Source: Nevskia sp.
Lineage (GTDB): Bacteria; Pseudomonadota; Gammaproteobacteria; Nevskiales; Nevskiaceae
Assembly: GCA_031291075.1 (NCBI GenBank)
Contig: JARLJS010000048.1
Coordinates: 1 to 64,000, forward strand
Direction: 5' to 3'
DNA: 64,000 bases
Under the pieces are notes generated by a model. That model did not search any database. It was not told the origin of the DNA and saw only the letters and a list, made by a program, of their open reading frames with translations. Both the position numbers and the translations under genes were made by a program. Positions 24,178 through 41,167 of this stretch are shown here, one piece after another (the first letter of the stretch is position 1; each line of letters begins with the position of its first letter).

Positions 24178-26408
24178 GCAAGTCGATGCGTAAGGGGCAC
24201 CAAGCGGAACCTCCATTCGATGCCGCCGCGGCGGCGGCCCTGGTGCGCGGGGAGCTGAAAGATCCCTTCGCGGTGCTGGGGCCGCATCGCGATGGCGCCG
24301 GCGTGACAGTGCGCGCCTTCCTGCCCGGCGCGGAGGCGGTCGAGGCGGTGGCGCGCGACGGCGGCGCTTCCCTGGGGACGTTGCTCCCGGTGCCGCCGGA
24401 GGGGCTGTTCGCCGGCCGCCTGCAGGCCGATACGGCCTATAGCCTGCGCATCCGCTGGCCCAGCGGAATGCAGGAGACCGAAGACCCCTATGCCTTCGGC
24501 CTGCTGCTGGGCGAGATGGATCTGCATCTGCTGGCGGAAGGGCGGCACCAGGAACTCGGCCGCTGCCTGGGCGCGCATCCGATGACAGTGGATGGCGTCG
24601 CCGGCGTACGTTTCGCCGTGTGGGCGCCCAACGCCCGCCGGGTCGCGGTGATCGGCGACTTCAATGGCTGGGACAGCCGCCGCCATGGCATGCGGCTGCG
24701 CCACGATGCCGGTGTGTGGGAATTGTTCGTGCCGCGCCTGGGCGTGGGCGAGGTCTACAAATACGAAGTGCTCGGCGCGGATGGCGGCCGGCACCTCAAG
24801 GCCGACCCGGTGGCCTGGTGCACCGAGCTGCCGCCGGCGACCGCCTCGGTGGTCGCCGATACCGCCGCCGCTTTCCGCTGGACCGACCAGAAGTGGCTCG
24901 AATCGCGTCGCGCGCGGCAGTCGCTGGGCGCTCCAATATCGATCTACGAGGTGCACGTCGGTTCCTGGCAGCGCGACATCTACGCCGGCGGCCGCTGGCT
25001 GAACTGGGACGAACTGGCGCAGCGGCTGGTGCCCTACGTGGCCGACCTCGGCTTCACCCATATCGAGCTGCTGCCGATCATGGAGCACCCCTTCGGCGGC
25101 TCCTGGGGCTACCAGCCGCTGGCGATGTTCGCGCCGACGGCGCGCTACGGCACGCCGGAGGGCTTCGCCCGCTTCGTCGACGCCTGCCACGCGGCAAACA
25201 TCGGCGTCCTGCTCGACTGGGTGCCGGCGCATTTCCCCAGCGACTCGCACGGCCTGGGCCGCTTCGATGGCACCGCCCTGTACGAGTATGCCGACCCGCG
25301 CGAAGGTCTCCATCCCGACTGGGGCACGCTGATCTACAACTTCGGCCGCCACGAGGTGGCCGGTTTCCTCATCGGCAGCGCGCTGCACTGGATCGAGCAC
25401 TACCACGTGGACGGGCTGCGCGTCGACGCCGTGGCCTCGATGCTCTACCGCGACTACAGCCGCAATCCGGGCGAGTGGGTGCCCAACGTGCATGGCGGGC
25501 GCGAGAACCTCGACGCCGTGGAATTCGTCCGGCGCCTCAACCAGACGGTGGCGCAGCGCTGCCCCGGCGCAATCGTGGTGGCGGAGGAATCCACCTCCTG
25601 GCCCGGCGTGACGCGCGACCCGGCCTACGGCGGCCTCGGCTTCGCCTACAAGTGGAACATGGGCTGGATGCACGACACCCTGCATTACATGAAGCTGGAT
25701 CCGGTGTACCGCGGCTATCACGACCGCGACCTGACGTTCGGGCTGATGTACGCCTTCAGCGAGCACTTCATGCTGCCGCTGTCGCACGACGAGGTGGTGC
25801 ACCTCAAGCGCTCGCTGTTCAGCAAGATGTCGGGCGACCGCTGGCAGCAGTTCGCCAACCTGCGTGCCTACCTCGGACTGATGTGGGGCTACCCGGGCAA
25901 GAAGCTGCTGTTCATGGGGGCGGAGCTCGCGCAGGAACGCGAATGGGATCACGACAGCGAGCTGCAGTGGCACCTGCTCGCCGACCCCCGGCACCGCGGC
26001 GTGCAGAACCTGGTGCGCGACCTCAACCGGCTCTATGTGGCGGAGCCCGCGCTGCACGCCGGCGATTGTCACGGTCACGGCTTCCGCTGGGTGGTGGTCG
26101 ACGACCGCGAGAACTGCGTGTTCGCCTGGCTGCGCCATGATCCGCAGGGCGGGACTCCGGTCCTGGTGGTCTGCAACATGACGCCGGTGCCACGGCATCA
26201 CTACCGGGTCGGTGTGCCCCAGGGCGGTCGCTGGCGCGAGCTGCTCAACACCGATGCCGGGCACTACGCCGGCAGCAACATGGGCAACGCCGGTGCGATC
26301 CTTGCGGAAACCGATTCCGCCCGCAAGGCCAGCCACGGCCTGCCGGAGTCTCTGGTGCTGACGCTGCCGCCCCTGGCCACCCTGATGCTGCGCCCGGAGA
26401 CGCCGTGA
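24174..26408 (+). CDS. glgB: 1,4-alpha-glucan branching enzyme
   Basis: A 744-residue GH13 branching enzyme that makes alpha-1,6 branches in glycogen. It has the full N-terminal region (two beta-sandwich modules, ~residues 20-250), the TIM-barrel core with catalytic [12 protein letters not shown] (nucleophile Asp), VVAEEST (Glu) and LSHDEV (Asp), and a C-terminal beta-domain. The start is taken as TTG at 24174, which overlaps the glgA stop by 4 nt and follows GGTGGG at a good distance; ATG at 24186 is the alternative. It overlaps glgX by 4 nt (GTGA). Confidence 0.95.
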
Positions 26409-28513
26409 CCGCCGGCCCCGAGCGCCTGTTTGCGGGGTCGCCGTATCCCCTCGGCGCGACGTGGGACGGTTCCGGGGTGAATTTCGCGGTTTTCTCCGCG
26501 CATGCCGAGCGGGTGGAACTCTGCCTGTTCGACAGCAGCGGCAGGCGCGAAGTCAGGCGCCTGCCGTTGCCCGAATGCACCGACGAGGTATGGCACGGCT
26601 ACCTCCCGCATGCCAAAGTCGGCCAGCTCTACGGCTACCGCGCCCACGGGCCCTATGATCCCGCCCAGGGCCACCGCTTCAACCCCCACAAGCTGCTGCT
26701 CGATCCTTACGCGCGCCGCATAGCGGGTAGCCTGAGCTGGTCGGATTCGCTCTACGGCTATCGCGTCGGCTCGCAGCGCGAGGATCTGTCCTTCGACCGG
26801 CGCGACAGCGCCGCCTGCATGCCCAAGGCCGTGGTGGTCGATCCGGCGATGAGCTGGGGCGAGGACCGTCCGCCGCGCACGCGCTGGTCCAGGACCGTGA
26901 TCTACGAGGCGCACCTGCGCGGCCTGACCATGCTGCGGCAGGATATCGCCGCCGCCGAGCGCGGCACTTTCGCCGGCCTGGCCAATCCGCGGGTGATCGA
27001 GCACCTGGTGCGGCTGGGCGTGACCACGATCGAGCTGCTGCCGGTCCATGCTTTCGTGCAGGACCGCTTCCTGGTCGACCGCAAGCTGTCCAACTACTGG
27101 GGCTACAACACGCTGGCGTTCTTCGCGCCGGAACCGCGCTACCTGTCCGACGGCAGCCTTGGCGAGATCCGCACGGCGGTGCACCGGCTGCACGCGGCCG
27201 GCATCGAGGTGCTGCTGGACGTGGTGTACAACCACACCGGCGAGGGCAACGAGCTGGGGCCCACGCTTTCGTTCCGTGGCCTGGACAACCTTAGCTACTA
27301 CCGGCTGCTGCCCGACAACCGGCGTCGCTACATCAACGACACCGGTTGCGGCAACACCGTCAACGTTTGCCATCCGCGCGTGATCCAGCTGGTCATGGAT
27401 TCGCTGCGCTACTGGGTGGAAGTCTTCCATGTCGACGGCTTTCGCTTCGACTTGTGCACCACCCTGGGCCGCGAACCCGAGGGATTCTCGCCGGAGAGCG
27501 GCTTTTTCGACGCGCTACGCCAGGACCCGGTGCTGTCGCAGGTCAAGCTGATCGCGGAACCCTGGGACGTCGGCCTGGGTGGCTACCAGCTGGGCCGGCA
27601 TCCCCCCGGCTTCGCCGAGTGGAACGACCGCTTCCGTGACGATACACGCCGCTTCTGGCGCGGCGACGGCGGCATGCGCGGCGCGCTGGCCGGGCGCTTG
27701 CACGGCTCGGCCGAGTTTTTCGACCACCACAAGCGGCGGCCCTGGGCCTCGGTCAATTTCGTCACCGCCCACGACGGGTTCACCCTGGAGGACCTGGTCA
27801 GCTATTCGGGCAAGCACAACCTGGCCAACGGCGAGGACAACCGGGACGGGCACTCGGAGAACTTCAGCTCAAACTACGGTGTGGAGGGTCCGACCACGGA
27901 TGCGGAGATCCTGCGCCGCCGTGGCGCCGTCAAGCGCGCCCTGTTGACCACGCTGCTGTGCGCCCACGGCACCCCCATGCTGGTGGCGGGCGACGAGTTC
28001 GGCCACACGCAAAACGGCAACAACAATGCCTATTGCCAGGACAACCGCACCAGCTGGATCAACTGGGCCCTGGCCGACACACCGGCGGCACGTGACTTGC
28101 AGCGCCTGGTGAGGCGGCTCACTGCCGCCCGGCGCGAGCACCCTTCCCTGCAGCGCGCGCGTTTCCTGCATGGCAGGGAAGAGCCGGCGCCGGGTCTGAG
28201 CGATATCACCTGGTTCAATCTTCAAGGCGAAGTCATGACGGGAGACGGGTGGCAGGACGGCAACGGCCGCGACCTGGTGTTGCGCCGCGCGGTACGGGTC
28301 GACGACGGGCAGGTGGACGTCAGCCTGCTGCTGCTCAACGGCGCGGCGGAGCCGCGCACCTTCCGCCTGCCGCCGCCGTCGCTGCCCTGGCGGCTGCTTG
28401 TCGACAGCGACGAGCCGCACGCGGTCGAGCGTATGCTCGACGCCGAGACGCTCGAAGTCGCAGCCCACTCCGTGGTGCTGCTGACCGCCTACGTCGACGG
28501 AGCCGTCGCATGA
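26405..28513 (+). CDS. glgX: Glycogen debranching enzyme
   Basis: A 702-residue GH13 debranching enzyme (isoamylase type) that removes alpha-1,6 branches after phosphorylase has shortened the outer chains. The N-terminal CBM48 region is visible ([21 protein letters not shown]). The catalytic core has [28 protein letters not shown] (nucleophile Asp), LIAEPWDVG (Glu) and [14 protein letters not shown] (Asp). The GTG start overlaps the glgB stop, and the TGA overlaps the malQ ATG (ATGA). All catalytic residues are present. Confidence 0.95.
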
Positions 28514-30603
28514 GCGACAAGGCGCTGCACGAACTGGCCGAAGCCGCCGGGCTGTCGATGCAATGGACCGACTACCAGGGCAAGCCGCACACGGTATCGC
28601 CCGAGGTCGCGCGGCGCATACTGGAAGCGCTGGAGCTGCCCTGCGGCTCGCCCCGCCAGGTCGCCGAAAGCCACGCTTTGCTGGAACAGGAGCGCAGCGG
28701 GCAGGGCGGCCTGCCCGCCCTGCTCGTCGGCAGCGCGGGGGTGCCGCTCGGGCTGCCGGCGACCGCGGGTGGCGAGCAGCGCTATCGGCTCGTGCTGGAA
28801 AGCGGTGCCACGGTTGAAGGTGCGCTGCAGGGCGGTCCCAATGGGCAGGTTTCGCTGCCCCCCGTCGCCGAATACGGCTACCACCGCCTGCAACTGGGCG
28901 ATCGGGAGACCGGGGTGGCGATCGCGCCACCGCGCGGCTACAGCCTCGACGACGTCGCGGGGAAGCGCAAGCTCTGGGGACTTACCGCCCAGCTCTATTC
29001 GCTGCGGCGCAAGGGGGATGGTGGCATCGGCGACTTCACCGCCCTGGGCCGGCTGGCGCGCGATGCCGGCGCGCGCGGGGCCGACGCGGTGGCGATCAGC
29101 CCGATCCACGCCCTGTTCGGAGCGGATCTCGATCGTTACAGCCCGTATGCGCCGTCGAGCCGTCTCCACTACAACCCGCTGTACGCCGATCCTGCCGGGA
29201 TCTTCGGCGAAGCCGCCGTGGCCTCCGCCGCGGCGGCGGAGGGTGTCGCCGATGCGCGTCTCCGCCTGGAAGGCGCGACGCTGATCGAGTGGCCGGAGGC
29301 CGCGCGGGCCAAGCTGGCCCTGATGCGGCGGTTGTATCGCGGCTTCGTGCAGGACGGGGCGGGGGAGTTCGCGGGCCGGAGGTCGGAGTTCGAGCGCTTC
29401 TGCAGCGCCGGCGGCGAGGCCTTGCGCGATCACGCCGTGTTCGAGACGCTGCATGCCCACTGCGTCCAGTCCGAACCGCGGCGCTGGCACTGGCGCGACT
29501 GGCCGCCGGAGTTCCGCGATCCGCGCGGCGCCGCGGTGGCCGCGTTCGCCTCCGAGCATGCCGACGAAGTGCGCTTTCACATGTTCCTGCAGTGGCAGGC
29601 CGCCTGCGGCCTGCGCGATGCCCAGGCCGCCGCGCGGCAGGGTGGCATGGCGATCGGCATCGTCGGTGACCTCGCCGTCGGCGCCGACGGCGGCGGCAGC
29701 CACGGCTGGAGCCGGCAGCATGACCTCCTGGGAGGGATCAGCGTCGGCGCGCCGCCGGACCTGATCAACAGCGTCGGCCAGAACTGGGGCCTTACCGCTT
29801 TTTCGCCGCAGGGCATGACGCATCACGGCTATGCCCCGTTCATCGAGATGATCCGGGCGTCCTTGCGCCACTGCGGCGGTCTGCGCATCGACCACGTGCT
29901 CGGCATGCAACGCATGTGGCTGGTGCCGGAAGGTGTGAAAGCCACCGAAGGGGCGTATCTGCGCTACCCGATGGAGGATCTGCTGCGCCTGATCGCGCTG
30001 GAATCGCGGCGCCACCGGGCGGTCATCATCGGCGAGGACCTCGGCACCGTGCCCGAGGGCTTCCGTCCCCGGCTGTCGGCCGCCGGCATCCTCGGCCTGC
30101 GCGTGCTGTGGTTCGAGCGCGAGTGGGGGCTCTATTCCGCGCCCGGACGCTGGCAGCGCGACGCCGTGGCGATGACCACCACCCACGACCTGCCCACCGT
30201 GGCCGGCTGGTGGCGCGGACGGGACATCGACTGGCGCACCAGGCTCGGCCTGCTGGGGCCCGGCCGCACCGAGAAATCCGAACGCGAGGAGCGTGGCAGG
30301 GACCGCGTCGCGCTGTGGAATGCATTTCTTTATGACGGCGTGGCACAGGGCGCCGTTCCGCCGCCGGAGCAGGGCGAAGCCGTGGCCGACGCCGCCGTGG
30401 CCTACGTCGCCCGCACCGCCTCGCAGCTTGCGCTGGTGCCGGTGGAAGACCTGTTGGGCCTGGTGGAGCAGCCCAACCTGCCGGGCACCATCGACGAACA
30501 CCCGAACTGGCGGCGGCGGCTGCCGTGCGAGGTGGAGGAAGTCGGGGAAAAGGGTGCGGCGCGGATGGCGTTGTTGGAGAAGGAGCGGCCGCGGGGCGGG
30601 TGA
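28510..30603 (+). CDS. malQ: 4-alpha-glucanotransferase (amylomaltase)
   Basis: A 697-residue GH77 enzyme that transfers glucan segments between maltodextrins, recycling short chains left by debranching. Motifs are GLRIDHVLGMQRMWLVPEG (nucleophile Asp), IIGEDLGTVPEGF (acid/base Glu) and MTTTHDLPTVAGWW (Asp). The N-terminal ~140 residues form an extra beta domain, as in long proteobacterial MalQ. The ATG overlaps the glgX stop by 4 nt. The gene ends only 5 nt from the convergent end of the kinase gene. Confidence 0.95.
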   Translation: MSDKALHELAEAAGLSMQWTDYQGKPHTVSPEVARRILEALELPCGSPRQVAESHALLEQERSGQGGLPALLVGSAGVPLGLPATAGGEQRYRLVLESGATVEGALQGGPNGQVSLPPVAEYGYHRLQLGDRETGVAIAPPRGYSLDDVAGKRKLWGLTAQLYSLRRKGDGGIGDFTALGRLARDAGARGADAVAISPIHALFGADLDRYSPYAPSSRLHYNPLYADPAGIFGEAAVASAAAAEGVADARLRLEGATLIEWPEAARAKLALMRRLYRGFVQDGAGEFAGRRSEFERFCSAGGEALRDHAVFETLHAHCVQSEPRRWHWRDWPPEFRDPRGAAVAAFASEHADEVRFHMFLQWQAACGLRDAQAAARQGGMAIGIVGDLAVGADGGGSHGWSRQHDLLGGISVGAPPDLINSVGQNWGLTAFSPQGMTHHGYAPFIEMIRASLRHCGGLRIDHVLGMQRMWLVPEGVKATEGAYLRYPMEDLLRLIALESRRHRAVIIGEDLGTVPEGFRPRLSAAGILGLRVLWFEREWGLYSAPGRWQRDAVAMTTTHDLPTVAGWWRGRDIDWRTRLGLLGPGRTEKSEREERGRDRVALWNAFLYDGVAQGAVPPPEQGEAVADAAVAYVARTASQLALVPVEDLLGLVEQPNLPGTIDEHPNWRRRLPCEVEEVGEKGAARMALLEKERPRGG

Positions 30604-30608
30604 TCCGG

Positions 30609-33350
30609 CTACTCGCGCGCCTGCAGTTGGTGAAGCGTTTGCAGACGGGCCTTGATGTCCCGCGTATCGGGGAAGTTTGCGCCTTCTGTTTCTTCCATCA
30701 GTGTAGCTGCTTCCGTTAAGTATCCGATTGCGGCCGGCATGTCGTTCAGCTGTTGAGCGCGGATGCCCTGCATATACACCAAGTACGACTTTTCCAGGTG
30801 ATAGCCATCCGTCAGTTGGGTTTGGCGCAGGCCGTCGGCAAGCTCATCGATCAACGGACTCGCTTGCGCCAGGTTGCCGGTATCCAGCAGGGTCTTCCCA
30901 CACGCTATCAAGATGTACAGGTACGCAATATCGGTCTTACCAAAGCTATGACGGCCTTGCCCGAGCAGCTTCGGCACCAGCGGGATGGCTTCGTTCGAAC
31001 GCCCGGCAAGATTGAGCGTGTCCACCAAGCGGATTTGCGAGCGGAGCGCCAGATAGTTGTCCGGACCGACCTGTTTTTCCAGCCCCTTATGCACACGTCT
31101 GTATATTTCTATCGCCTCGGCAAAGCGGCTGGAGATCACGTAAAGGTCTGCCAGCAGTTCTTCGCCATCCAGTGCCTCGACGCTGTCCGGTCCATACAGC
31201 GCAGCGAATCCGGAAGCTGCCTTATGGGTTTCCGCCTCCGCTTCGGCGAAGGCCGACGCCCGCTCGCTTCCGAAAAAACCCAGGCAGCCTAGCGCCTGCC
31301 CCAGTTCTTGACGCACGCTCAGGGTCGGCCGCCCGTTCTCGCCGTAGGTGGCTACGAAATGCGGCAGCCACTGGTGGCTCAGTTCCACGGCCTCCTTGCA
31401 CTGGCGCAATTCCCCGAGCGCTCGCAGATAGTAGGGTCGGGCCGTGTCGATCACTCTTGAATCCTCCATGGTCGCAGAGGATGCGCGGTCCTTTAGCACG
31501 GTGCCGAGCAGTCGCGCGGCCGCGACTGCGTCGCCTGTCCGGTTCTTGAGTTCCCCTTCGATCACCCTGGCTTTGAGCATGACCGGATCGCTTGGCGAGA
31601 CCACCTTCCTGAGCTTCGCGTAGATCTCTTCGAAATCCGGCCCCACATCGGCCTCTCGAACGATCAGAAGACGATAGCTCAGCGCGTCGATCCCGGCGGC
31701 GAGCGTATGCAAATCGTCCGCGCCGAGGTTGTCACTGTATAGCTGCGCGGAGCGTTGGGCCAGCCTGATTGCCTCTTGGGGCTCGCTCAACGTATCGAGC
31801 GTATCCGCCAGCGCCCGGTCGAGCGCGGCCTCCACCAAAGGACTACTAGCTAGCCTCTTGGGAATTTCCGGCAGGCTGCTGACGATCGCCTGCTTGAGTG
31901 TGATGTCATAGCGCCCGCCGTAATCCGGGCTGGCCGCCTTGATGATGTCCCGGTTGAGGAATTCGTTGAACTGCGTGGCGATGTTGCGCTGAAGTTCTGC
32001 GGCCTGGACCGCCTGCCGTTCCCGCAGCAACAGGAATGTGCTGATCCCGAGACCCAGTACGAGCACGATGCCGGTGAGCACGACCCACGGCCGTTTCGCC
32101 CGAGCCCGATCCAACTCACGTCGTGCCTGCTGCAAACGCTCCTGCTCCGTTTGCTGCCGGAGTTGTTCCGCCCGCCGAGCCGGCAGGTTACGCAACCGTT
32201 CCGCCAGCAGTTGTGCCGAAGGCAGCCGTCTCTGTGGCGTACCGTTGGTGGCCTGCCGGATGTCGTCGCGCAGCAGTTCGTCTGGGACATCCGCTTCCCA
32301 GCCTGAGGCGATCGGCCGCCACTGGCCTGTTACCAGTTGATAAAGCAGTACACCCAGGGCAAACACATCCGACTGCACGCTGGCACTGCCGCCGGAGAAG
32401 AGCTCCGGCGCCATGTACACGAGAGTTCCGGCTCCCGAGTTGTCAGCATGGGCTACGGTCTGGGTGAACCCCAACATGGTGATTCCCAAGGAGTTGAGCC
32501 GTCCGGCTTCGGCCTGCCCGGCGCCGAAGTCGCAGAGCCGGATCCGGGGGCGGCCATCGACTTCCTCCACCAGGATGTTCTGGGGTTTCAGATCCTTGTG
32601 CAGCACGCCGACCGAGTGGGCTGCGCCGACCGCTTCTGCGATTTGTGCTACGAGCTCGATGCGCAGCCCCAGGTCCACGCTGGTAGGGCCGCCCTGTTCA
32701 TCCAGCCAACTGCGCAGGTCTGCACCCACGTATTCGGACTCGATGAAGTAGGGTGCCAGCTCGAACTGCCAGTCCAGGATCCTGGCGACTGCGGCCCCCT
32801 CTCCCAGCGCTTCACGCAGCAGGCGGTAAAGGGTGACCTCGCGTTTCAGCGCACGCAGTTGGGAGCCTTCTGCACCGAACTTGAAGAACCGCTGCTCGCG
32901 GGTCTTGGCGTGCTCGGCCAGCCAGGCGTTGCCGCCTCCGCCCAGCAGCTTGACCAGTGTCCAGTGCGGCCGTCCCGGCACGCTGTCGCCAGCCTGCAAG
33001 CCCAGCTGTACCGGCGGTTCCGCATCCGAGCTACGCTCGACCTCAGCCACCAGCCGGTAGCCGACCTTTGGAATGGTGACGATCAGGCTCTGGTCGTCGT
33101 CGCCCAGGGCCCGGCGCAGCTTGCCGATGGCGTTGGACACCGCGGCTTCATGGACCGGGCGTCCTTCCCACACCGTTTCCAGGATTTCCTCGGAAGTGAC
33201 GACTTCCCCGGCATGCTCCAGCAGCAGGCGGAGGGCTTCCAGCGGCTTGGGCTCGATGCCGACGGACTGGCCGCGCACCCGCACCTCATGGGTGCGTGCG
33301 TCCAACTCCGCTTCGGCGAAGCGCCAGAGGGTTGTGCGTTCGTCGCCCAT
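30609..33350 (-). CDS. Winged-helix / Ser-Thr kinase / TM / TPR fusion protein (downstream copy)
   Basis: A 913-residue multidomain protein. Residues 1-105 are an OmpR/ToxR-type winged helix (EPKPLEALRLLLEHAGEVVT, HEAAVSNAIGKLRRALGDDD, IPKVGYRLVAEV). Residues ~130-390 are a eukaryotic-type Ser/Thr kinase with all key residues: Gly-rich loop LLGGGGNAW, Lys157, helix-C Glu171, HKDLKPQN (Asp253, Asn258), DFG (Asp274) and MAPE (Glu316). A charged helix leads to one membrane span (421-443), after which TPR-like helices fill ~450-913. The likely topology is DNA-binding and kinase domains in the cytoplasm, TPR sensor outside. It lies 14 nt after a close paralogue and ends 5 nt from malQ. Winged-helix/TPR and kinase/TPR proteins are known; the combination is unusual. 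The role is unknown: a membrane-bound regulator that phosphorylates itself or a partner is my inference. Confidence 0.85.
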   Translation of the reverse strand: MGDERTTLWRFAEAELDARTHEVRVRGQSVGIEPKPLEALRLLLEHAGEVVTSEEILETVWEGRPVHEAAVSNAIGKLRRALGDDDQSLIVTIPKVGYRLVAEVERSSDAEPPVQLGLQAGDSVPGRPHWTLVKLLGGGGNAWLAEHAKTREQRFFKFGAEGSQLRALKREVTLYRLLREALGEGAAVARILDWQFELAPYFIESEYVGADLRSWLDEQGGPTSVDLGLRIELVAQIAEAVGAAHSVGVLHKDLKPQNILVEEVDGRPRIRLCDFGAGQAEAGRLNSLGITMLGFTQTVAHADNSGAGTLVYMAPELFSGGSASVQSDVFALGVLLYQLVTGQWRPIASGWEADVPDELLRDDIRQATNGTPQRRLPSAQLLAERLRNLPARRAEQLRQQTEQERLQQARRELDRARAKRPWVVLTGIVLVLGLGISTFLLLRERQAVQAAELQRNIATQFNEFLNRDIIKAASPDYGGRYDITLKQAIVSSLPEIPKRLASSPLVEAALDRALADTLDTLSEPQEAIRLAQRSAQLYSDNLGADDLHTLAAGIDALSYRLLIVREADVGPDFEEIYAKLRKVVSPSDPVMLKARVIEGELKNRTGDAVAAARLLGTVLKDRASSATMEDSRVIDTARPYYLRALGELRQCKEAVELSHQWLPHFVATYGENGRPTLSVRQELGQALGCLGFFGSERASAFAEAEAETHKAASGFAALYGPDSVEALDGEELLADLYVISSRFAEAIEIYRRVHKGLEKQVGPDNYLALRSQIRLVDTLNLAGRSNEAIPLVPKLLGQGRHSFGKTDIAYLYILIACGKTLLDTGNLAQASPLIDELADGLRQTQLTDGYHLEKSYLVYMQGIRAQQLNDMPAAIGYLTEAATLMEETEGANFPDTRDIKARLQTLHQLQARE

Positions 33351-33364
33351 GGATAGGTCGTGGC

Positions 33365-36109
33365 TCAGCTTTGTGCTTCTGCCTTTCTGAGCGCCTGCAG
33401 GCGTGACCTGGCGTCGCGGGCTGTAAAGCAGTTCGGGCCGAGTGTGTTTTCGAAGCGACGCGTGGCGTCGGTCAGATACGCAATAGCTGCTTGAATATCC
33501 CCTTGTTGCTGCGCACGAATGCCTTGTAGATACGACAACAACGATCGTTGTGTCCGAGTGAACTGGGTGTCAGGCGCTTGGACAAGATTCACCATCAGCT
33601 CATCGATTAGAACGTTCGCTTCGGCTGTGTGCCCACCATACAAGAGTGCTTGGGCCGAAATAAGCAGTGTGTATCGATAACGGTAGTCGGTTTTACCGAG
33701 ATCGCGGCCCGTTTGGTCGAGAAGCTTTTGCGCGAGGGGGATAGCGTCGTTTATTTGCCCGGATTGATTGAGGCACGACAGGCGTATAAATTGAGGTCGG
33801 TAAGCTGCTAGGCTACTGGTACCCAACTGCGTACCTATCCCTTCATAGACACGCTGAGATAGAGCTATGCATTCGGAATTGCGCTCGAAGAAGAAATATA
33901 TGTAAGCGAGATCTTCTTCGCCGATCAGCGTCTCGAGACTATCCGGGCCGTACAGTTCTGAATATCCGGAAATAGCCGCACGAAGCTCTGTTTCCGCTTC
34001 CGCAAAATGGGCCAATTCGGGACGTCCGACGCCATGACAGGCAAGTGCGTCTCCCAGCGCCTCACGCAAGTTGAGGGTTGGGCGCCCTTTCTCGCCGTAG
34101 GTGGAGACAAAATGCGGAAGCCATTGGCGAGCCAATTCAACGTTCTTTGTGCATTCGTCTAAATCGAAGAGGCGCGCGCCTAGATAATCGATTCGAGTTT
34201 TATCAATCCACTCAGAGAGTTCCTTCGAGGACGGCGACGGGTACTCCTTCAGGGCATTGCCCCAGATCTGGCTGGCAGTGTCCATATTCCCTGCTTTGTA
34301 AGCAAGCATGCCTTCGATCGTTCTTGCCTTTAGCATTACCAGATCATCCGGAGAAGCCGTGCGCCTGAGCTTGGCGTACGTATCGTCAAAAATCCGATGA
34401 AGACCGTCCGGTCCGACAATCTCAAGGCTGTGCTCGACGACACCTATCTTCGCTGTTAATGTCTGGAGATCGTCGGGTCCCAGATTGTCGCTATACAGTT
34501 GTGCTGAGCGCTCAGCCAGCTTGATGGCCTCTTTTTGTTCGCTCAACGTGTCTAGCGTATCCGCCAGGACCAAATCGAGAGCCGCTTCAACGAGCGGGCT
34601 GCCGCCCAGCCTCTTCGGAATCTCCGGCAAGCTGCTGACCACCGCCTGCTTGAGCGTAATGTCATAACGCCCGCCGTAATCCGGGCTGGCCGCCTTGATG
34701 ATGTCCCGGTTCAGGAATTCGTTGAACTGAGTGGCGATGTTGCGCTGCAGTTCTGCGGCCTGGACCGCCTGACGCTCCTGCAGCAGCAGCGCTGTGCTGG
34801 CCGTCAAGCCCAATATCAGCACAATGCCGGTGAGCATCACCCAGGGCCGTTTCGCCCGGGTCCGATCCAGCTCGCGGCGCGCCTGCTGCAAGCGCTCCTG
34901 CTCCGCCAGTTGCCGTGCCTGTTCGGCGCGCCGCTGCGGCAGGCTGCGCAGCCGTTCCGCCAGCAGTTGTGCCGAAGGCAGTCGTCTCTGCGGCGTACCA
35001 TTGGTGGCCTGGCGGATGTCGTCGCGCAGCAACTCGTCAGGGACATCGGCCTCCCAGCCCGAAGCGATGGGCCGCCACTGGCCGGTCACCAGCTGGTAGA
35101 GCAGTACTCCCAGGGCAAACACGTCGGACTGCACGCTGGCGCTGCCGCCTGAAAACAGCTCCGGTGCCATGTAGACCAGCGTCCCGGCTCCTGAGTTGTC
35201 GGCATGGGCCACGGTCTGGGTGAACCCCAGCATGGTGATTCCCAGGGAGTTGAGCCGGCCGGCTTCGGCCTGCCCGGCGCCGAAGTCGCACAGGCGGATT
35301 CTCGGCAGGCCGTCGATCTCCTCGACCAGGATGTTCTGGGGTTTCACGTCCTTGTGCAGCACGCCGACCGAGTGGGCGGCGCCGACCGCTTCTGCGATTT
35401 GCGCCACGAGCTCGATGCGCAGCCCCAGGTCCATGCCGGCAGGGCCGCCCTGACCATCCAGCCAACTACGCAGGTCTGCGCCCACATATTCGGACTCTAC
35501 GAAGTAGGGCTCCTTCTCGAACTGCCAGTCCAGGATCCTGGCGACCGCGGCCCCCTCTCCCAGCGCTTCATGCAGCAGGCGGTAAAGGGTGACTTCGCGC
35601 TTGAGCGCGCGCAGCTGCTGGCTTTCGTTGCAGAACTTGAAGAAGCGCAGCTCGCGCGTCTTGACGTGCTCGGCCAGCCAGGCGTTGCCCGATCCGCCGC
35701 CGAGTGGCTTCACCAGTCTCCAGTGAGGCCGGTCCGGAACGCAATCACCCGCTTGCAGCCCCAGTTGAACGGACGACTCCGCGTCGGTGCTGCGCTCGAC
35801 CTCGGCCATCAGGCGGTAGCCGACCTTGGGAACGGTGAGGATCAGGCTCTGATCGTCGTCGCCCAGGGCCCGACGCAGCTTGCCGATAGCGTTGGACACA
35901 GCAGCTTCGTGGACGGGCCGTCCTCCCCAGACCGTTTCCAGGATCTCATCGGTGGTGACAACCTCGCCGGCGTGCTCCAGCAGCAGGCGCAAAACCTCGA
36001 GCGGCTTGGGCTCGATACCGACGCTCAGCCCCCGCACCCGCACCTCGTGGGTGCGTGCGTCAAGCTCCGCTTGCGCGAAGCGCCAGATGGCTGTGCGTTC
36101 GTCTCCCAT
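33365..36109 (-). CDS. Winged-helix / Ser-Thr kinase / TM / TPR fusion protein (upstream copy)
   Basis: A 914-residue tandem paralogue of the next gene with the same order: winged helix (1-105), kinase (~130-391, Lys158, Asp254 in HKDVKPQN, Asp275 in DFG, APE), membrane span (~422-444), extracytoplasmic TPR region. The Gly-rich loop has one extra residue (LGGGSGNAW). Kinase residues from PRIRLCDFG to LLAERLR are identical in both copies, and so is the block after the membrane span (RQAVQAAELQ...DITLKQA). The rest of the sensor part has diverged strongly and its DNA (33400-34500) is visibly poorer in GC than the neighbourhood. No Shine-Dalgarno precedes the ATG; instead one arm of an inverted repeat abuts it. 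CRP-like sites lie 122 and 234 bases upstream. Confidence 0.85.
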   Translation of the reverse strand: MGDERTAIWRFAQAELDARTHEVRVRGLSVGIEPKPLEVLRLLLEHAGEVVTTDEILETVWGGRPVHEAAVSNAIGKLRRALGDDDQSLILTVPKVGYRLMAEVERSTDAESSVQLGLQAGDCVPDRPHWRLVKPLGGGSGNAWLAEHVKTRELRFFKFCNESQQLRALKREVTLYRLLHEALGEGAAVARILDWQFEKEPYFVESEYVGADLRSWLDGQGGPAGMDLGLRIELVAQIAEAVGAAHSVGVLHKDVKPQNILVEEIDGLPRIRLCDFGAGQAEAGRLNSLGITMLGFTQTVAHADNSGAGTLVYMAPELFSGGSASVQSDVFALGVLLYQLVTGQWRPIASGWEADVPDELLRDDIRQATNGTPQRRLPSAQLLAERLRSLPQRRAEQARQLAEQERLQQARRELDRTRAKRPWVMLTGIVLILGLTASTALLLQERQAVQAAELQRNIATQFNEFLNRDIIKAASPDYGGRYDITLKQAVVSSLPEIPKRLGGSPLVEAALDLVLADTLDTLSEQKEAIKLAERSAQLYSDNLGPDDLQTLTAKIGVVEHSLEIVGPDGLHRIFDDTYAKLRRTASPDDLVMLKARTIEGMLAYKAGNMDTASQIWGNALKEYPSPSSKELSEWIDKTRIDYLGARLFDLDECTKNVELARQWLPHFVSTYGEKGRPTLNLREALGDALACHGVGRPELAHFAEAETELRAAISGYSELYGPDSLETLIGEEDLAYIYFFFERNSECIALSQRVYEGIGTQLGTSSLAAYRPQFIRLSCLNQSGQINDAIPLAQKLLDQTGRDLGKTDYRYRYTLLISAQALLYGGHTAEANVLIDELMVNLVQAPDTQFTRTQRSLLSYLQGIRAQQQGDIQAAIAYLTDATRRFENTLGPNCFTARDARSRLQALRKAEAQS

Positions 36110-36110
36110 G

Positions 36111-36154
36111 GCAGCGTGTGTATCCGTACCGACGTCCGCGGTCGCTCACGCTGC
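36111..36154 (-). promoter_or_regulatory. Inverted repeat touching the start of the upstream kinase gene
   Basis: GCAGCGTG (36111-36118) and CACGCTGC (36147-36154) are perfect 8-base arms. On the mRNA the second arm ends one base before the ATG at 36109, where a ribosome site would be expected but is absent. It could hide the start codon region, or be an operator for the protein's own winged helix. Confidence 0.3.
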
Positions 36155-36230
36155 CGCAGTCCCCGTGTCGTCCCCGATCCGGTTCTTGCAGCGAGTTTAA
36201 ACTGGCACCGAATGCGCCACGATGGCGTTT

Positions 36231-36246
36231 TGTGACATATGTCGCA
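36231..36246. promoter_or_regulatory. CRP/Clp-like binding site (9 of 10)
   Basis: TGTGA-CATATG-TCGCA matches the CRP-family consensus TGTGA-N6-TCACA at 9 of 10 bases, within an 18-base near-palindrome (36230-36247). It is centred 129 bases before the upstream kinase start, with an AT-rich TTTAAA (36196-36201) downstream that might be part of a -10 element. Gammaproteobacterial CRP, Vfr and Clp recognise this consensus. Confidence 0.5.
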
Positions 36247-36342
36247 AGCGCCTTATGGGTAGAATCTACTAGCCGACGTACGGAGTGCATCCAGATGCTT
36301 GGGATGTGACGTACACGAGGCCGGAACCGGCGACGATCGTAT

Positions 36343-36358
36343 TGTGACGCCGCTCACA
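36343..36358. promoter_or_regulatory. CRP/Clp-like binding site (10 of 10)
   Basis: TGTGA-CGCCGC-TCACA is a perfect match to the CRP-family consensus. It lies 9 bases past the DUF3617 stop codon and 234 bases upstream of the kinase pair, 112 bases (centre to centre) from the second site. With no other gene start nearby, the kinase pair is the natural target. Confidence 0.55.
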
Positions 36359-36367
36359 TCCGAGCGT

Positions 36368-36934
36368 TCAGGGTTGTCCGAACGGGCGCACCGCACCGCA
36401 GTCGGCAGCTTGCCAGCGGCCGGAAAAATCGGTCCTGGTTTCGGTGGGGCCGCCGTCCGCGTTCTTGCCGGCGAACTGTATGCTGCCGCTGTAGTGCTCA
36501 TCGTTGTCGTAAGTGACGCTTACGTGACCGCTGCCTTGCATGTCGCCGCTGCAGGCGAGGTCGGCCGTATAGCTGCGTCCGCTATGCTTGACGTTCCTCA
36601 CCAGGCAGCCCTGCTGCAGATCGAGTTCGGGCGGTGCGGTCAGAGCCGCCTGGGCTGGTGTGACGCAGATCTGCGAGGTCATCGGGCCGGTGCCGGGAAC
36701 GCTGATGCCCATCTGCTTGATCATGGCCAGTTGTTCGGGCGACACGTCCGGAATCTGCATGCCCATCTGCCTGGCCAGGGCCAGCTTCTCAGCCGAGACC
36801 TGCGGGATGCCGCCGCTGAAGTTCATCTGGGTCGTGACCTGCCACAGGCCTGGCTTGCCATGGTCGTAGGACAGGGCGACACCCGGCAACACGAGCAGCG
36901 CGGCGATCACCAATACTACGCTTCGGTAGTGCAT
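36368..36934 (-). CDS. DUF3617 family exported protein
   Basis: A 188-residue secreted protein of the DUF3617 family. The signal peptide is residues 1-22 (LLVLPGVALS). Mature features are the N-terminal GKPGLWQVTTQMNF, a Gln/Met-rich middle with two similar segments (LALARQMGMQIPDVS and LAMIKQMGISVPGTG), the conserved SQICVTPAQA, and a C-terminal beta domain with paired cysteines (QQGCLVRN, LACSGDMQG). The function of the family is unknown. It is a single gene between pgl and the kinase pair, all on the minus strand. Confidence 0.82.
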   Translation of the reverse strand: MHYRSVVLVIAALLVLPGVALSYDHGKPGLWQVTTQMNFSGGIPQVSAEKLALARQMGMQIPDVSPEQLAMIKQMGISVPGTGPMTSQICVTPAQAALTAPPELDLQQGCLVRNVKHSGRSYTADLACSGDMQGSGHVSVTYDNDEHYSGSIQFAGKNADGGPTETRTDFSGRWQAADCGAVRPFGQP

Positions 36935-36983: not shown

Positions 36984-37688
36984 TCAGTCAATCAGGTACA
37001 CGTACACCGGGACCCTGGTCTGCCGCAGCACGGCCGCGATCGGCAGCAGGCGGGCCGTCACGTGCTGGCGCGCCTCCTCGTAGACGCGATGCTTGGCCTC
37101 GCCCTGGATCTGCAGGTACAAGCCGCGCGCATCGAGCAGGCCGGCGAGGGTGAAGCTCAGGCGCGGGTGCTCGGCAGCCGAGGGTTGCACCGCCGTGAGC
37201 ACTGCCTTGCCGCCGGGGTCCAGGGCGGCTGCGGTGGCGGTGGCGTCCGGGAACAAGGACGCCGTATGGCCGTCCTCGCCCATGCCGAGTACCACGGCGT
37301 CGAAGGGGCGGGGCAGTGCTTCGAGTGCGCGCGTGCGCTCGGCGATGGCCTCGGCCGGACTGGCCGCCGCGGTCTTGAGCGGCACGAAGTGGGCTTCCGC
37401 CACCGCGCCGCTCAGCAGGCTCTGCCGCAGGAGGTGTTCGTTGCTGTCCGGGGACGGCGGGTCCACCCAGCGTTCGTCCACCAGGCTGATATAGACGTGC
37501 GCCCATTCCAGGGGTTGCTGTGCCAGGGCCTGCAGGAATGCCAGCGGGCTGCGGCCGCCGGACAGGATCATCGAAGCGCGGGCCCGGCAGCGCAGGCCCT
37601 CGCGCAACGCGGCGGCGACGTCCTGCGCCAGGGCTTCGGCCGAGGCCGCGGCGTCGCCGAACCTGCGCTCGACGACTTCGGCACTCAA
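36984..37688 (-). CDS. pgl: 6-phosphogluconolactonase
   Basis: A 234-residue SugarP-isomerase-fold lactonase that hydrolyses 6-phosphogluconolactone to 6-phosphogluconate. Motifs are MILSGGRSPLAFLQAL, ISLVDERWVDPPSPDSNE and VVLGMGEDGHTASLFP, all diagnostic of the DevB-type enzyme. The start is a TTG overlapping the zwf stop (TTGA), with GGAGG 8 bases before it. Cotranscribed with zwf, which makes its substrate. Confidence 0.94.
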   Translation of the reverse strand: MSAEVVERRFGDAAASAEALAQDVAAALREGLRCRARASMILSGGRSPLAFLQALAQQPLEWAHVYISLVDERWVDPPSPDSNEHLLRQSLLSGAVAEAHFVPLKTAAASPAEAIAERTRALEALPRPFDAVVLGMGEDGHTASLFPDATATAAALDPGGKAVLTAVQPSAAEHPRLSFTLAGLLDARGLYLQIQGEAKHRVYEEARQHVTARLLPIAAVLRQTRVPVYVYLID

Positions 37689-39142
37689 GTCTCTTCCCTC
37701 CAGGCCAGGCCCTCGCGCGCGATCAGCGCGCTGGAGGCGGTGGGGCCCCAGGTGCCGGAGGTATAGGGCTTCGGCGGATCGCCCTGCACGGCCCAGGCCT
37801 CCTGGATCGGGTCGATCCAGCGCCAGGCCGCGTCCAGCTCGTCGCGGCGCATGAACAGGGTGAGGTTGCCCGAGATCGCGTCCATCAGCAGGCGCTCATA
37901 GGCATCCCAGCGGCGCGTCTTGAAAGTCTTGCCGAAGTCCAGGTCCAGGTCCACCGGCCGCACCCGCATCTCCGCCCCGGGGATCTTGGCCGACACGAAC
38001 AGCTTGATGCCTTCGTCCGGCTGCAGGCGGATCACCAGCCGGTTGGTGTCGCCGTCGGTGCCGGGGAGAATCGCGTACGGCACCCCACGGAAGTTGATCA
38101 CGATCTCCGATACGCGTTCCTGCATACGCTTGCCGGTGCGCAGGTAGAACGGCACCCGGGCCCAGCGCCAGTTGTCGAGGTCCACCCGCATGGCGATGAA
38201 GGTCTCGGTGGTGCTGTGGGCGGGAATTCCTTTCTCTTCCAGGTATCCGGGCACCGCCTTGCCGTCGATGGCGCCCGGGCGGTACTGCCCGCGCACGATC
38301 TTGGCCCGCACCGTGTCCGGCGTGAACGGGCGCAGCGCCTTCAGCACCTTGAGCTTTTCGTCGCGCACGGCATCGGGATCGATGCTCACCGGCGGCTCCA
38401 TGGCGATGATGCACAGCAGCTGCAGCAGGTGGTTCTGCACCATGTCGCGCAGCGAGCCGTAGTGATCGAAGTAGCCGCCGCGTTCCTCCACGCCCACCGT
38501 TTCGGCCAGGGTGATCTGCACGTCGCGCACCGCCACGCGGTGCCACAAGGGCTCGAAGATGGAGTTGGCGAAACGCAGCGCCAGCAGGTTCTGCACCGTT
38601 TCCTTGCCCAGGTAATGGTCGATCCGGTAGATCTGCCGCTCCTCGAAGATCTTGCCCACCTCCTCGTTGATGCGCGTGGCCGAGGCCAGGTCGCGACCGA
38701 GCGGCTTCTCCAGCACCACGCGCGACAGCGGCGTCACCAGCCCGGCGGCGGCGAGGTGGGCGCAGATGGTGGAAAACAGGTCAGCGGCGGTCGACAGGTA
38801 GAACACGCGGATGCGCTGGCCGGAGTCGCGCAGGCGCTCCGCCAGCTCGGCGAAGCCGGTTCCGCCGGCGCCGTCGATGGACAGGTAATCGATCGACTGG
38901 GTGAAAGCGGTCCAGGCGCGCTCGTCGAAGTCCGCGGCGGGAATGTAGCGCCGGCAGGTTGCGGTGATCATCTCGATGTACTGCTCGCGGCCCAGCTTCT
39001 GCCGGGAGGCGGCATAGCTGCGCCAGCCGCGCGTGTCCTTGCTGTCGCGGTGGCGGTAATACAGGCCCGGCAGCAGCTTGCGCAAGGCGAGGTCCCCGGT
39101 GCCTCCGAAAAAGATCAGGTCGAAGCTGTCGGGTAAAGCCAT
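37685..39142 (-). CDS. zwf: Glucose-6-phosphate 1-dehydrogenase
   Basis: A 485-residue enzyme oxidising glucose-6-phosphate to the lactone with NAD(P)+. The N-terminal cofactor motif is IFFGGTGDLALRKLLPGLYY, and the active-site signature RIDHYLGKETVQNLLALRF is intact, as is EKPLGRDLASA. The length is normal. It overlaps pgl by 4 nt and is divergent from edd across 144 bases, so the whole upper Entner-Doudoroff route is grouped here. Confidence 0.96.
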   Translation of the reverse strand: MALPDSFDLIFFGGTGDLALRKLLPGLYYRHRDSKDTRGWRSYAASRQKLGREQYIEMITATCRRYIPAADFDERAWTAFTQSIDYLSIDGAGGTGFAELAERLRDSGQRIRVFYLSTAADLFSTICAHLAAAGLVTPLSRVVLEKPLGRDLASATRINEEVGKIFEERQIYRIDHYLGKETVQNLLALRFANSIFEPLWHRVAVRDVQITLAETVGVEERGGYFDHYGSLRDMVQNHLLQLLCIIAMEPPVSIDPDAVRDEKLKVLKALRPFTPDTVRAKIVRGQYRPGAIDGKAVPGYLEEKGIPAHSTTETFIAMRVDLDNWRWARVPFYLRTGKRMQERVSEIVINFRGVPYAILPGTDGDTNRLVIRLQPDEGIKLFVSAKIPGAEMRVRPVDLDLDFGKTFKTRRWDAYERLLMDAISGNLTLFMRRDELDAAWRWIDPIQEAWAVQGDPPKPYTSGTWGPTASSALIAREGLAWREET

Positions 39143-39286
39143 GATCCATGCCCTCGCAGGTCAGACACCATATTGTCCGGGATTACTTCTTGCACGGATA
39201 TTGCCGGCCGCGCAGGATGCTCATGGTTTCGCTAGCGTGTTCCTTGCCATGTGTCCGCACGCCGGCCCGGACCGCACGGAGGTACT

Positions 39287-41167
<1,881 letters not shown>

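Follow-up and report, generated by a model that had tools for sequence, protein, structure and literature searches.

The gene pair and its family

The stretch of DNA analysed here (the window) comprises 64,000 nucleotides (64 kb) of Nevskia sp. contig JARLJS010000048.1. It carries two adjacent genes whose products, P0001 (914 amino acids, aa) and P0002 (913 aa), combine in one chain a winged helix-turn-helix (wHTH) DNA-binding domain, a Ser/Thr kinase domain, a membrane span and a tetratricopeptide repeat (TPR) region (coordinates in Table 1). Both open reading frames (ORFs) were confirmed on the minus strand. Only 14 bp separate the genes, which suggests one transcript for the pair. This architecture had been described by an earlier reading made from the letters and ORF translations (hereafter the sequence-only reading), and the domain search it proposed bears it out: in Pfam, Trans_reg_C (PF00486) matched P0001 with 2.7e-16 and P0002 with 1.6e-15, Pkinase (PF00069) with 2.5e-22 and 1.3e-21, and TPR_12 was clear in P0002 (8e-10) and marginal in P0001 (6.1e-7; 30.0 bits, 0.1 bit below the cut-off of 30.1). 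In each protein the strongest hydrophobic segment, and the single strong one, lies near residues 423-445. The best 25 NCBIfam matches listed for each protein were all under their cut-offs.

The residues Lys157, Asp253 and Asp274 named by the sequence-only reading are correct for the copy at 30609-33350. The corresponding residues of P0001 are Lys158, Asp254 and Asp275, with Glu172 in addition, the numbering in P0002 being one lower throughout. An AlphaFold model of P0001, built from only four sequences, predicts 19 helices across residues 505-913 with good confidence. The model is poor in the kinase N-lobe and activation segment (predicted local distance difference test, pLDDT, below 50 at 124-209 and 275-313), and we made no use of its kinase part except for the fold match to PknS of Xanthomonas citri. 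PknS (9eed) is the best solved-structure kinase by sequence (9.8e-15) and also the first kinase in the fold-search list. The structure of the CadC DNA-binding domain (5ju7) matches residues 21-104 of P0001 (8.5e-11), and Rap-type TPR peptide receptors are among the fold matches, which shows a shared TPR fold only. Unlike in ToxR/CadC-like regulators, a kinase domain of about 275 residues sits between the winged helix and the sensor. SARP domains are OmpR-like; a bacterial transcriptional activation domain, a SARP/AfsR trait, was found neither among the Pfam families listed for P0001 and P0002 nor among 24 families counted over 50 family members.

A census of the architecture, likewise proposed by the sequence-only reading, revealed a recurrent multi-copy family. 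When searching with the wHTH and kinase part, 47 of 85 genomes of the same order, in 12 of 21 genera, matched at 1e-30 or better, and a chance fusion was rejected on this count. The per-genome counts sum to 140 matches, with up to 10 per genome; 126 of these span the query from residue 9 or before to residue 358 or beyond, and several others stop at contig ends. Matches were found in at least 4 of 369 genomes sampled from the class (two outside the order) and in at least 6 of 398 sampled from the phylum (three outside the class), both counts being lower bounds with up to five candidates per genome scored. At 1e-30 no plasmid matched; at 1e-5, 758 plasmid records matched the wHTH and kinase part alone, none covering 80% of the query. 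Of 32 matching phage records, none covered 80% of the query either. In the source genome four of nine Pkinase matches belong to the family. The third copy is apparently split over contigs C265 (119-2116) and C33 (141-902, the match beginning only at base 141), a join that may be an assembly break in near-repeats; the fourth lies at a contig end (C249). One further genome of the same taxonomic family (G007) has the same locus as Hydrocarboniphaga daqingensis (L010 and L083). Genes around relatives were called with a GC-position heuristic, and their starts are uncertain. At four loci (L041, L046, L090, L096) the family gene was lost in the calls; only that of L041 was re-added, by hand, to the alignment of 73 members used below.

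PF00486 and PF00069 were both present in all 50 of the 73 members that were scanned in Pfam, and TPR_12 in 41. Throughout the 73 members the Hanks-type hallmarks are kept (VAIK Lys, alpha-C Glu, HxD Asp, Asn, DFG Asp, APE Glu), with Lys158, Glu172, His252, Asp254, Lys256, Asn259, Asp275, Glu317, Asp329 and Arg376 of the kinase invariant; a pseudokinase as the principal reading was rejected on this basis. Arg79, Gly97 and Arg99 of the winged helix are invariant as well. HKD replaces HRD in 68 members (four have Arg, one Leu), the glycine loop is degenerate (Gly137 in 49 members), and Thr297 of the activation segment is Ser or Thr in 70. Judged by hydropathy and charge only, the proteins have a single span with the N-terminus inside; the hydrophobic segment is weak (mean about 1.6 or less) in 11 of the 73, and three have more than one strong segment. 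The TPR part is predicted to be extracytoplasmic, the N-terminal side of the span being the more positive in 67 of 73. Two members (L060:7169-10357 and L085:6935-10144) show only weak TPR matches in the C-terminal half, which by eye resembles the TolB-like region of some CadC-type proteins.

We built a tree from 20 members of our own choice together with 26 other kinases, representing 24 distinct sequences, of nine related genomes. A single branch of length 1.89 with support 100/100 split the two sets, so that the family is a distinct, deep kinase branch. The wHTH-kinase fusion may have a single origin. All 26 other kinases have HRD. The sequence-only reading had put the stretch from DFG to APE at about 40 residues and considered it unusually long. 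From the DFG Asp to the APE Glu we counted 43 residues inclusive in both window copies and 38-47 across the 73 members, so that a long activation segment is a family trait, compared with 28-38 in 22 of 24 measurable other kinases; the remaining two values, 68 and 132, are probably parsing errors. The sole match of the source genome to PF13672 (C117:4316-5823), the one phosphatase family searched, adjoins a kinase domain; this protein is a candidate phosphatase for the receptors.

Cytoplasmic and TPR halves differ in history

For a comparison of the two halves we used twelve members at three chromosomal loci, placed by their flanking genes. At locus A (L079, L092, L098, L111, L114, L117) the 3' flank is rlmJ (PF04378), and the 5' flank is, in five of six cases, a gene for 157-163 aa that has no Pfam match. 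At locus B (L104, L106, L112, L119) all four members have a gene with a deacetylase domain (PF00850) as 3' flank, and three of them (L104, L106 and L119) have SelO (PF02696) as 5' flank. Locus C (L103, L108) is marked by gamma-glutamyltranspeptidase (PF01019). The gene just downstream of the receptor gene, here called cargo, falls into four classes: a Cys-rich protein of 222 aa (L106, L112), a radical SAM protein (L104, L119), a tyrosinase (L103, L108, L114, L117) and a protein of 171-183 aa with a Cx4CP motif (L079, L092, L098, L111).

The tree of the cytoplasmic halves clusters by locus, with two changes, the minimum possible and a value equally low in none of 200 shuffles, and does not cluster by cargo (six changes, as low in 65 of 200). 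The tree of the TPR halves clusters by the downstream gene, with three changes, again the minimum possible and equally low in none of 200 shuffles. Within locus B the cytoplasmic half unites L106 with L119 (support 100/100), whereas the TPR half unites L106 with L112 (100/100) and L104 with L119 (100/99), in line with the downstream genes. L106 and L119 share 85% identity in the cytoplasmic half and a TPR match of just 77 residues, while L106 and L112 share 72% and 73%, respectively. Approximately unbiased (AU) tests rejected the four discordant groupings (p = 1.9e-30, 1.8e-13, 1.4e-5 and 4.6e-12). This tree conflict shows, as the new finding here, that the cytoplasmic half and the TPR half differ in history. 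The wHTH-kinase half stays with its chromosomal locus while the sensor half is exchanged and, in these twelve members, goes with the downstream genes, with exceptions at further loci.

Dissimilar TPR halves behind similar cytoplasmic halves are also seen across the family. Of 23 pairs with a cytoplasmic identity of at least 0.80 in the multiple alignment, ten have a TPR identity below 0.50; pairwise blastp on seven of these ten gave C-terminal identities of 21-55%, or short or non-significant matches only. The cleanest case is that of L055 and L058, which occupy the same locus in two genomes; the proteins flanking it are 78% identical on the 5' side and 86% on the 3' side. Their kinase blocks are 0.90-0.96 identical up to residue 350, after which the identity drops to 0.76, 0.42 and about 0.2, with 21% in the C-terminal half by blastp. 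L159 is another swap: its cytoplasmic half is 93% identical to L043, and its TPR half is nearest to L050 at 64%. The window pair itself is 90% identical over residues 8-440. Over residues 540-900 the multiple alignment gives 47%, and blastp of the part from the membrane span onward gives 55%.

Several points weigh against an exchange of sensors together with their cargo. The cargo and locus groups were named after the identities had been seen. Support for loci A and B in the cytoplasmic tree is only 79/84 and 84/86, L112 of locus B has a 5' neighbour of the locus-C type, and the TPR tree is also clustered by locus (three changes with a minimum of two, as low in 3 of 200 shuffles). The Cx4CP cargo proteins match each other by blastp in just four of six pairs. 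Another 20 loci, picked from the matches in the order, included three whose cargo belonged to a known class; L162 and L171 agree with the TPR grouping, and L175 does not. The TPR half of L160 is nearest to the radical SAM group (40-47%), yet no radical SAM gene lies downstream. Finally, the window pair is without downstream cargo, since the gene ending 6 bp away, for a 4-alpha-glucanotransferase, is on the other strand.

Radical SAM genes lie directly downstream of the receptor gene at L104 (8714-9643), L119 (8576-9942) and L175 (6304-7643), and in the latter two are followed by a small ORF of about 112 aa, so that gene and ORF look like a peptide-modification pair. The best NCBIfam match of the L119 protein is YydG (2.6e-28), yet under the cut-off; the small cargo proteins had no NCBIfam match above cut-off. 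L044 (1807-2229, 5331-5630 and 8924-9346), L125 (3203-3589) and L082 (5002-5448) encode small proteins in which a signal peptide is combined with runs of LNG/ING repeats. At L044 the three alternate with three tandem receptor genes. One such protein scanned in Pfam and one scanned in NCBIfam gave no match.

Upstream DNA and neighbouring genes

In the 258-bp region upstream of the pair (36110-36367) GTCACA is the most enriched hexamer. Three of its seven copies in the 64 kb (both strands) fall into this region, all in direct orientation, and a hexamer as extreme occurred in 7 of 1000 random segments. One copy is part of the only TGTGA-N6-TCACA palindrome of the window; such a perfect palindrome was present in 3 of 100 shuffles. 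This candidate site fits a CRP site as well as the receptor's own operator. The related pattern TGTG-N7-TCWCA occurs upstream of 13 of 93 family genes compared with 1 of 616 control genes (shuffle mean 0.2). Its weight as a receptor operator is lessened in that it was read off loci A and B, which account for 12 of the 13 (beyond them only P0001 has it), and in that it, too, resembles a CRP site. Among 351,956 dyads counted, none stood out as a family-wide upstream motif, and the upstream regions of P0001 and the C265 paralogue shared no blastn match longer than 9 bases.

Table 1. Coordinates of the receptor gene pair, its domains, the upstream candidate sites and the 5' neighbour within the window
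Feature	Position	Strand	Remarks
P0001, first gene of the pair, 914 aa	33365..36109	-	order winged helix, Ser/Thr kinase, membrane span, TPR
P0002, second gene of the pair, 913 aa	30609..33350	-	architecture as P0001
Gap of 14 bp between the two genes	33351..33364		
P0001 winged-helix DNA-binding domain, aa 8-105	35795..36088	-	PF00486 at 30-100
P0001 kinase domain, aa 128-405	34895..35728	-	K158, E172, H252-K253-D254, N259, D275, APE 315-317
P0001 membrane span, aa about 423-445	34775..34843	-	hydropathy peak 2.21
P0001 TPR region, aa about 505-913, presumed periplasmic sensor	33371..34597	-	
P0002 winged helix, aa 8-105	33036..33329	-	PF00486 at 27-100
P0002 kinase domain, aa 128-404	32139..32969	-	K157, E171, D253, D274; limits carried over from P0001
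P0002 membrane span, aa about 422-444	32019..32087	-	hydropathy peak 2.53
P0002 TPR region, aa about 504-912	30615..31841	-	extent carried over from P0001
TGTGAGCGGCGTCACA, sole TGTGA-N6-TCACA palindrome in the 64-kb window	36343..36358	-	contains first GTCACA, 36343-36348
Second GTCACA direct repeat	36305..36310	-	
Third GTCACA direct repeat	36231..36236	-	
5'-side neighbour, probably exported DUF3617 protein	36368..36934	-	PF12276, 2.8e-15; passes crude signal-peptide rule

The DUF3617 neighbour is a possible target of the receptors or a mere neighbour. Within the family the 5' neighbour is divergent at 44 of 69 loci according to our gene calls, and 27 of these 44 pass the signal-peptide rule compared with 130 of 429 background genes (Fisher p = 7e-5). 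When leaving out three probable wrong-frame calls (L049, L111 and L119, one of which counted as exported), 26 of 41 pass. The rule also passes 7 of 25 same-strand 5' neighbours and 28 of 67 3' neighbours (p = 0.07); it is crude, with 30% of background genes passing, which lessens the weight of the excess. The Pfam scan covered twenty neighbours, of which 19 had been called as divergent 5' neighbours. Among these 19 were three subtilases carrying Calx-beta, two RND pumps (which are membrane proteins and not secreted), one TonB receptor, one OmpA/Calx-beta protein and one FG-GAP protein; two proteins had sub-cut-off matches only, and nine, including the miscall at L119, had no match. The remaining neighbour was a small secreted protein from L044, likewise without Pfam match. 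In three genomes (L043:5561-8341, L050:7376-10258, L116:6031-8859) the receptor gene is divergent from a subtilase-Calx-beta-DUF1573 gene; identity of these divergent neighbours to that of L116 is 49% and 60%, and the C-terminal match between L043 and L116 was non-significant. A conserved operon partner common to the family was not found in 29 loci plus the window or, later, in 69 loci, the clusters of neighbours being small.

In the window the pair is surrounded by sugar-metabolism genes: an isoamylase-type gene (26405-28513), the 4-alpha-glucanotransferase gene (28249-30603), genes of the phosphogluconolactonase family (36984-37688) and for glucose-6-phosphate dehydrogenase (37685-39142), and a 6-phosphogluconate/dihydroxy-acid dehydratase gene (39251-41167). 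The G+C content is 0.621 at 32001-36000, coinciding with the receptor pair, and 0.64-0.73 in the other 4-kb blocks.

A receptor model, its alternatives and known systems

We consider it reasonably probable that the proteins are kinase-coupled one-component receptors, each regulating the operon to which it belongs and genes nearby. The periplasmic TPR superhelix would bind a cue. Relayed through the single membrane helix, this would, if CadC and PknS are a guide, alter how the cytoplasmic half dimerises or is oriented. The Hanks-type kinase domain, in which the catalytic residues are kept, could then autophosphorylate on its long activation segment, with Thr297 as the putative site, and phosphorylate the winged helix or the linker, either its own or its partner's. 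The winged helix would thereupon bind upstream of its own gene, in the window at the candidate GTCACA-type repeats, and upstream of the neighbouring operon. The catalytic residues and the candidate sites fit the idea of the sequence-only reading that a single protein could sense outside, phosphorylate inside and bind DNA itself. In evolution the wHTH-kinase half stays with the locus while the TPR half is exchanged, at some loci together with downstream operon genes, as the tree conflict shows. The TPR half may be the input and the wHTH half the locus-specific output, because the pattern of exchange is as expected for such roles, and the tandem pair of the window could represent one output read by two diverged sensors.

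A more far-reaching extension, which we regard as unlikely, is a modular receptor-and-cargo system. Each cassette would consist of a TPR sensor and the genes just downstream, the sensor would recognise the product of its own cassette, and the wHTH-kinase half would be a fixed socket that drives the cassette. Several of the downstream genes resemble pairings of a small substrate, either peptide or protein, with an enzyme that modifies it (a radical SAM protein or a tyrosinase). The bold form, in which a sensor reads its own cassette's product, is drawn from the match between the trees. If true, such a system would give Gram-negative bacteria a kinase-based equivalent of peptide-receptor pairs like Rap/Phr.

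Alternatively, the kinase might be the real output: the winged helix would just anchor it at certain promoters, and its substrate there would be RNA polymerase, a sigma factor or some other regulator, in the way that PknS phosphorylates EcfK. In favour of this, PknS has the best sequence match among solved kinases, and it exerts its effect on a sigma factor by way of a receptor made up of kinase, membrane span and TPRs (PMC13147305). We nevertheless hold this to be improbable: no sigma factor, as expected for a partner of PknS/ECF43 type, was found among the six window neighbours or the 20 neighbours scanned in relatives, a more distant partner being possible; the winged helix is conserved like the kinase (mean column majority 0.65 versus 0.66 in 31 sequences); and candidate binding sites lie upstream of the receptor gene itself.

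It is quite unlikely, in our estimate, that similar cytoplasmic and dissimilar TPR halves result from gene conversion among paralogues plus fast drift of the TPR part, without any exchange of sensors. At fourfold-degenerate sites P0001 and P0002 are closer to each other in the cytoplasmic half than in the TPR half, which is what conversion between tandem copies would produce. Moreover, other kinases with a C-terminal extension diverge fast in this part, too: core and C-terminal identities are 84% and 50% for L129/L130, 76% and 65% for L152/L157, 69% and 28% for L134/L158, and 71% and 23% for L143/L151. Fast C-terminal divergence is therefore partly general, and L143/L151 in particular counts against exchange. 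However, L055 and L058 lie in different genomes at the same locus with well-conserved flanks and still differ in the C-terminal half. In addition, TPR halves 60-73% alike, matching by downstream gene, are found behind cytoplasmic halves just 68-72% alike, and the AU tests reject a shared history of the halves.

The kinase fold might also serve just as an ATP-binding switch, or as a scaffold linking the sensor to the winged helix, and carry out no phosphotransfer. This would agree with HKD in place of HRD and with the degenerate glycine loop, but we judge it very improbable, as pseudokinases usually lose some catalytic residues and here all six hallmarks are invariant.

If the proteins act as kinase-coupled receptors, their interest lies in the fact that bacterial Ser/Thr kinases often have many targets and that their signals are seldom known. 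Here the likely target of the kinase, the DNA-binding domain, is in the same molecule, and the exchange of sensors with downstream genes hints at each sensor's signal; both substrate and signal of a receptor kinase would therefore become directly testable. The family also supplies a natural set of sensor-swap chimeras.

The architecture is apparently uncharacterised in the open-access literature, where among the matches listed no title or abstract describes it (subscription papers and preprints lie outside this search). The part of PMC1262709 with the table of kinase architectures names no winged-helix kinase, and in PMC2877116 and PMC11032199 no mention of winged, DNA-binding or helix-turn-helix was found. 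A pairing of receptor and propeptide is described for RRNPP systems (PMC10075063). Two known systems couple a Ser/Thr kinase to a separate regulator. In Streptomyces the kinase AfsK is coupled to AfsR, a DNA-binding regulator with SARP, NOD and TPR domains whose phosphorylation hardly affects activation in vitro (PMC10936776); the components are alike, but distributed over two proteins. In Mycobacterium tuberculosis the OmpR-type regulator EmbR is phosphorylated by PknH, which stimulates its interaction with promoters (PMC4601284), and again the proteins are separate, interacting through an FHA domain.

The sequence-only reading had contrasted the pair with CadC/ToxR and with known TPR kinases, and both contrasts hold, the second for PknS. 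CadC and ToxR, as described in passages of PMC5430869, have a cytoplasmic OmpR-type winged helix, one membrane helix and a periplasmic sensor. The family shares the N-terminal winged helix, the single membrane helix and a sensor beyond it, but these regulators are kinase-free: where CadC has a disordered linker, the family has a complete Ser/Thr kinase domain (PF00069), and its sensor is a long TPR array. PknS of X. citri combines a kinase in the cytoplasm with one membrane helix and TPRs in the periplasm, and its substrate is the sigma factor EcfK; the passages of PMC13147305 that describe it name no DNA-binding domain. The order of kinase, membrane span and TPRs is common to both. PknS, however, carries an N-terminal extension of 83 residues and acts through the separate EcfK, whereas the family has HKD in the kinase core and a winged helix in the same chain.

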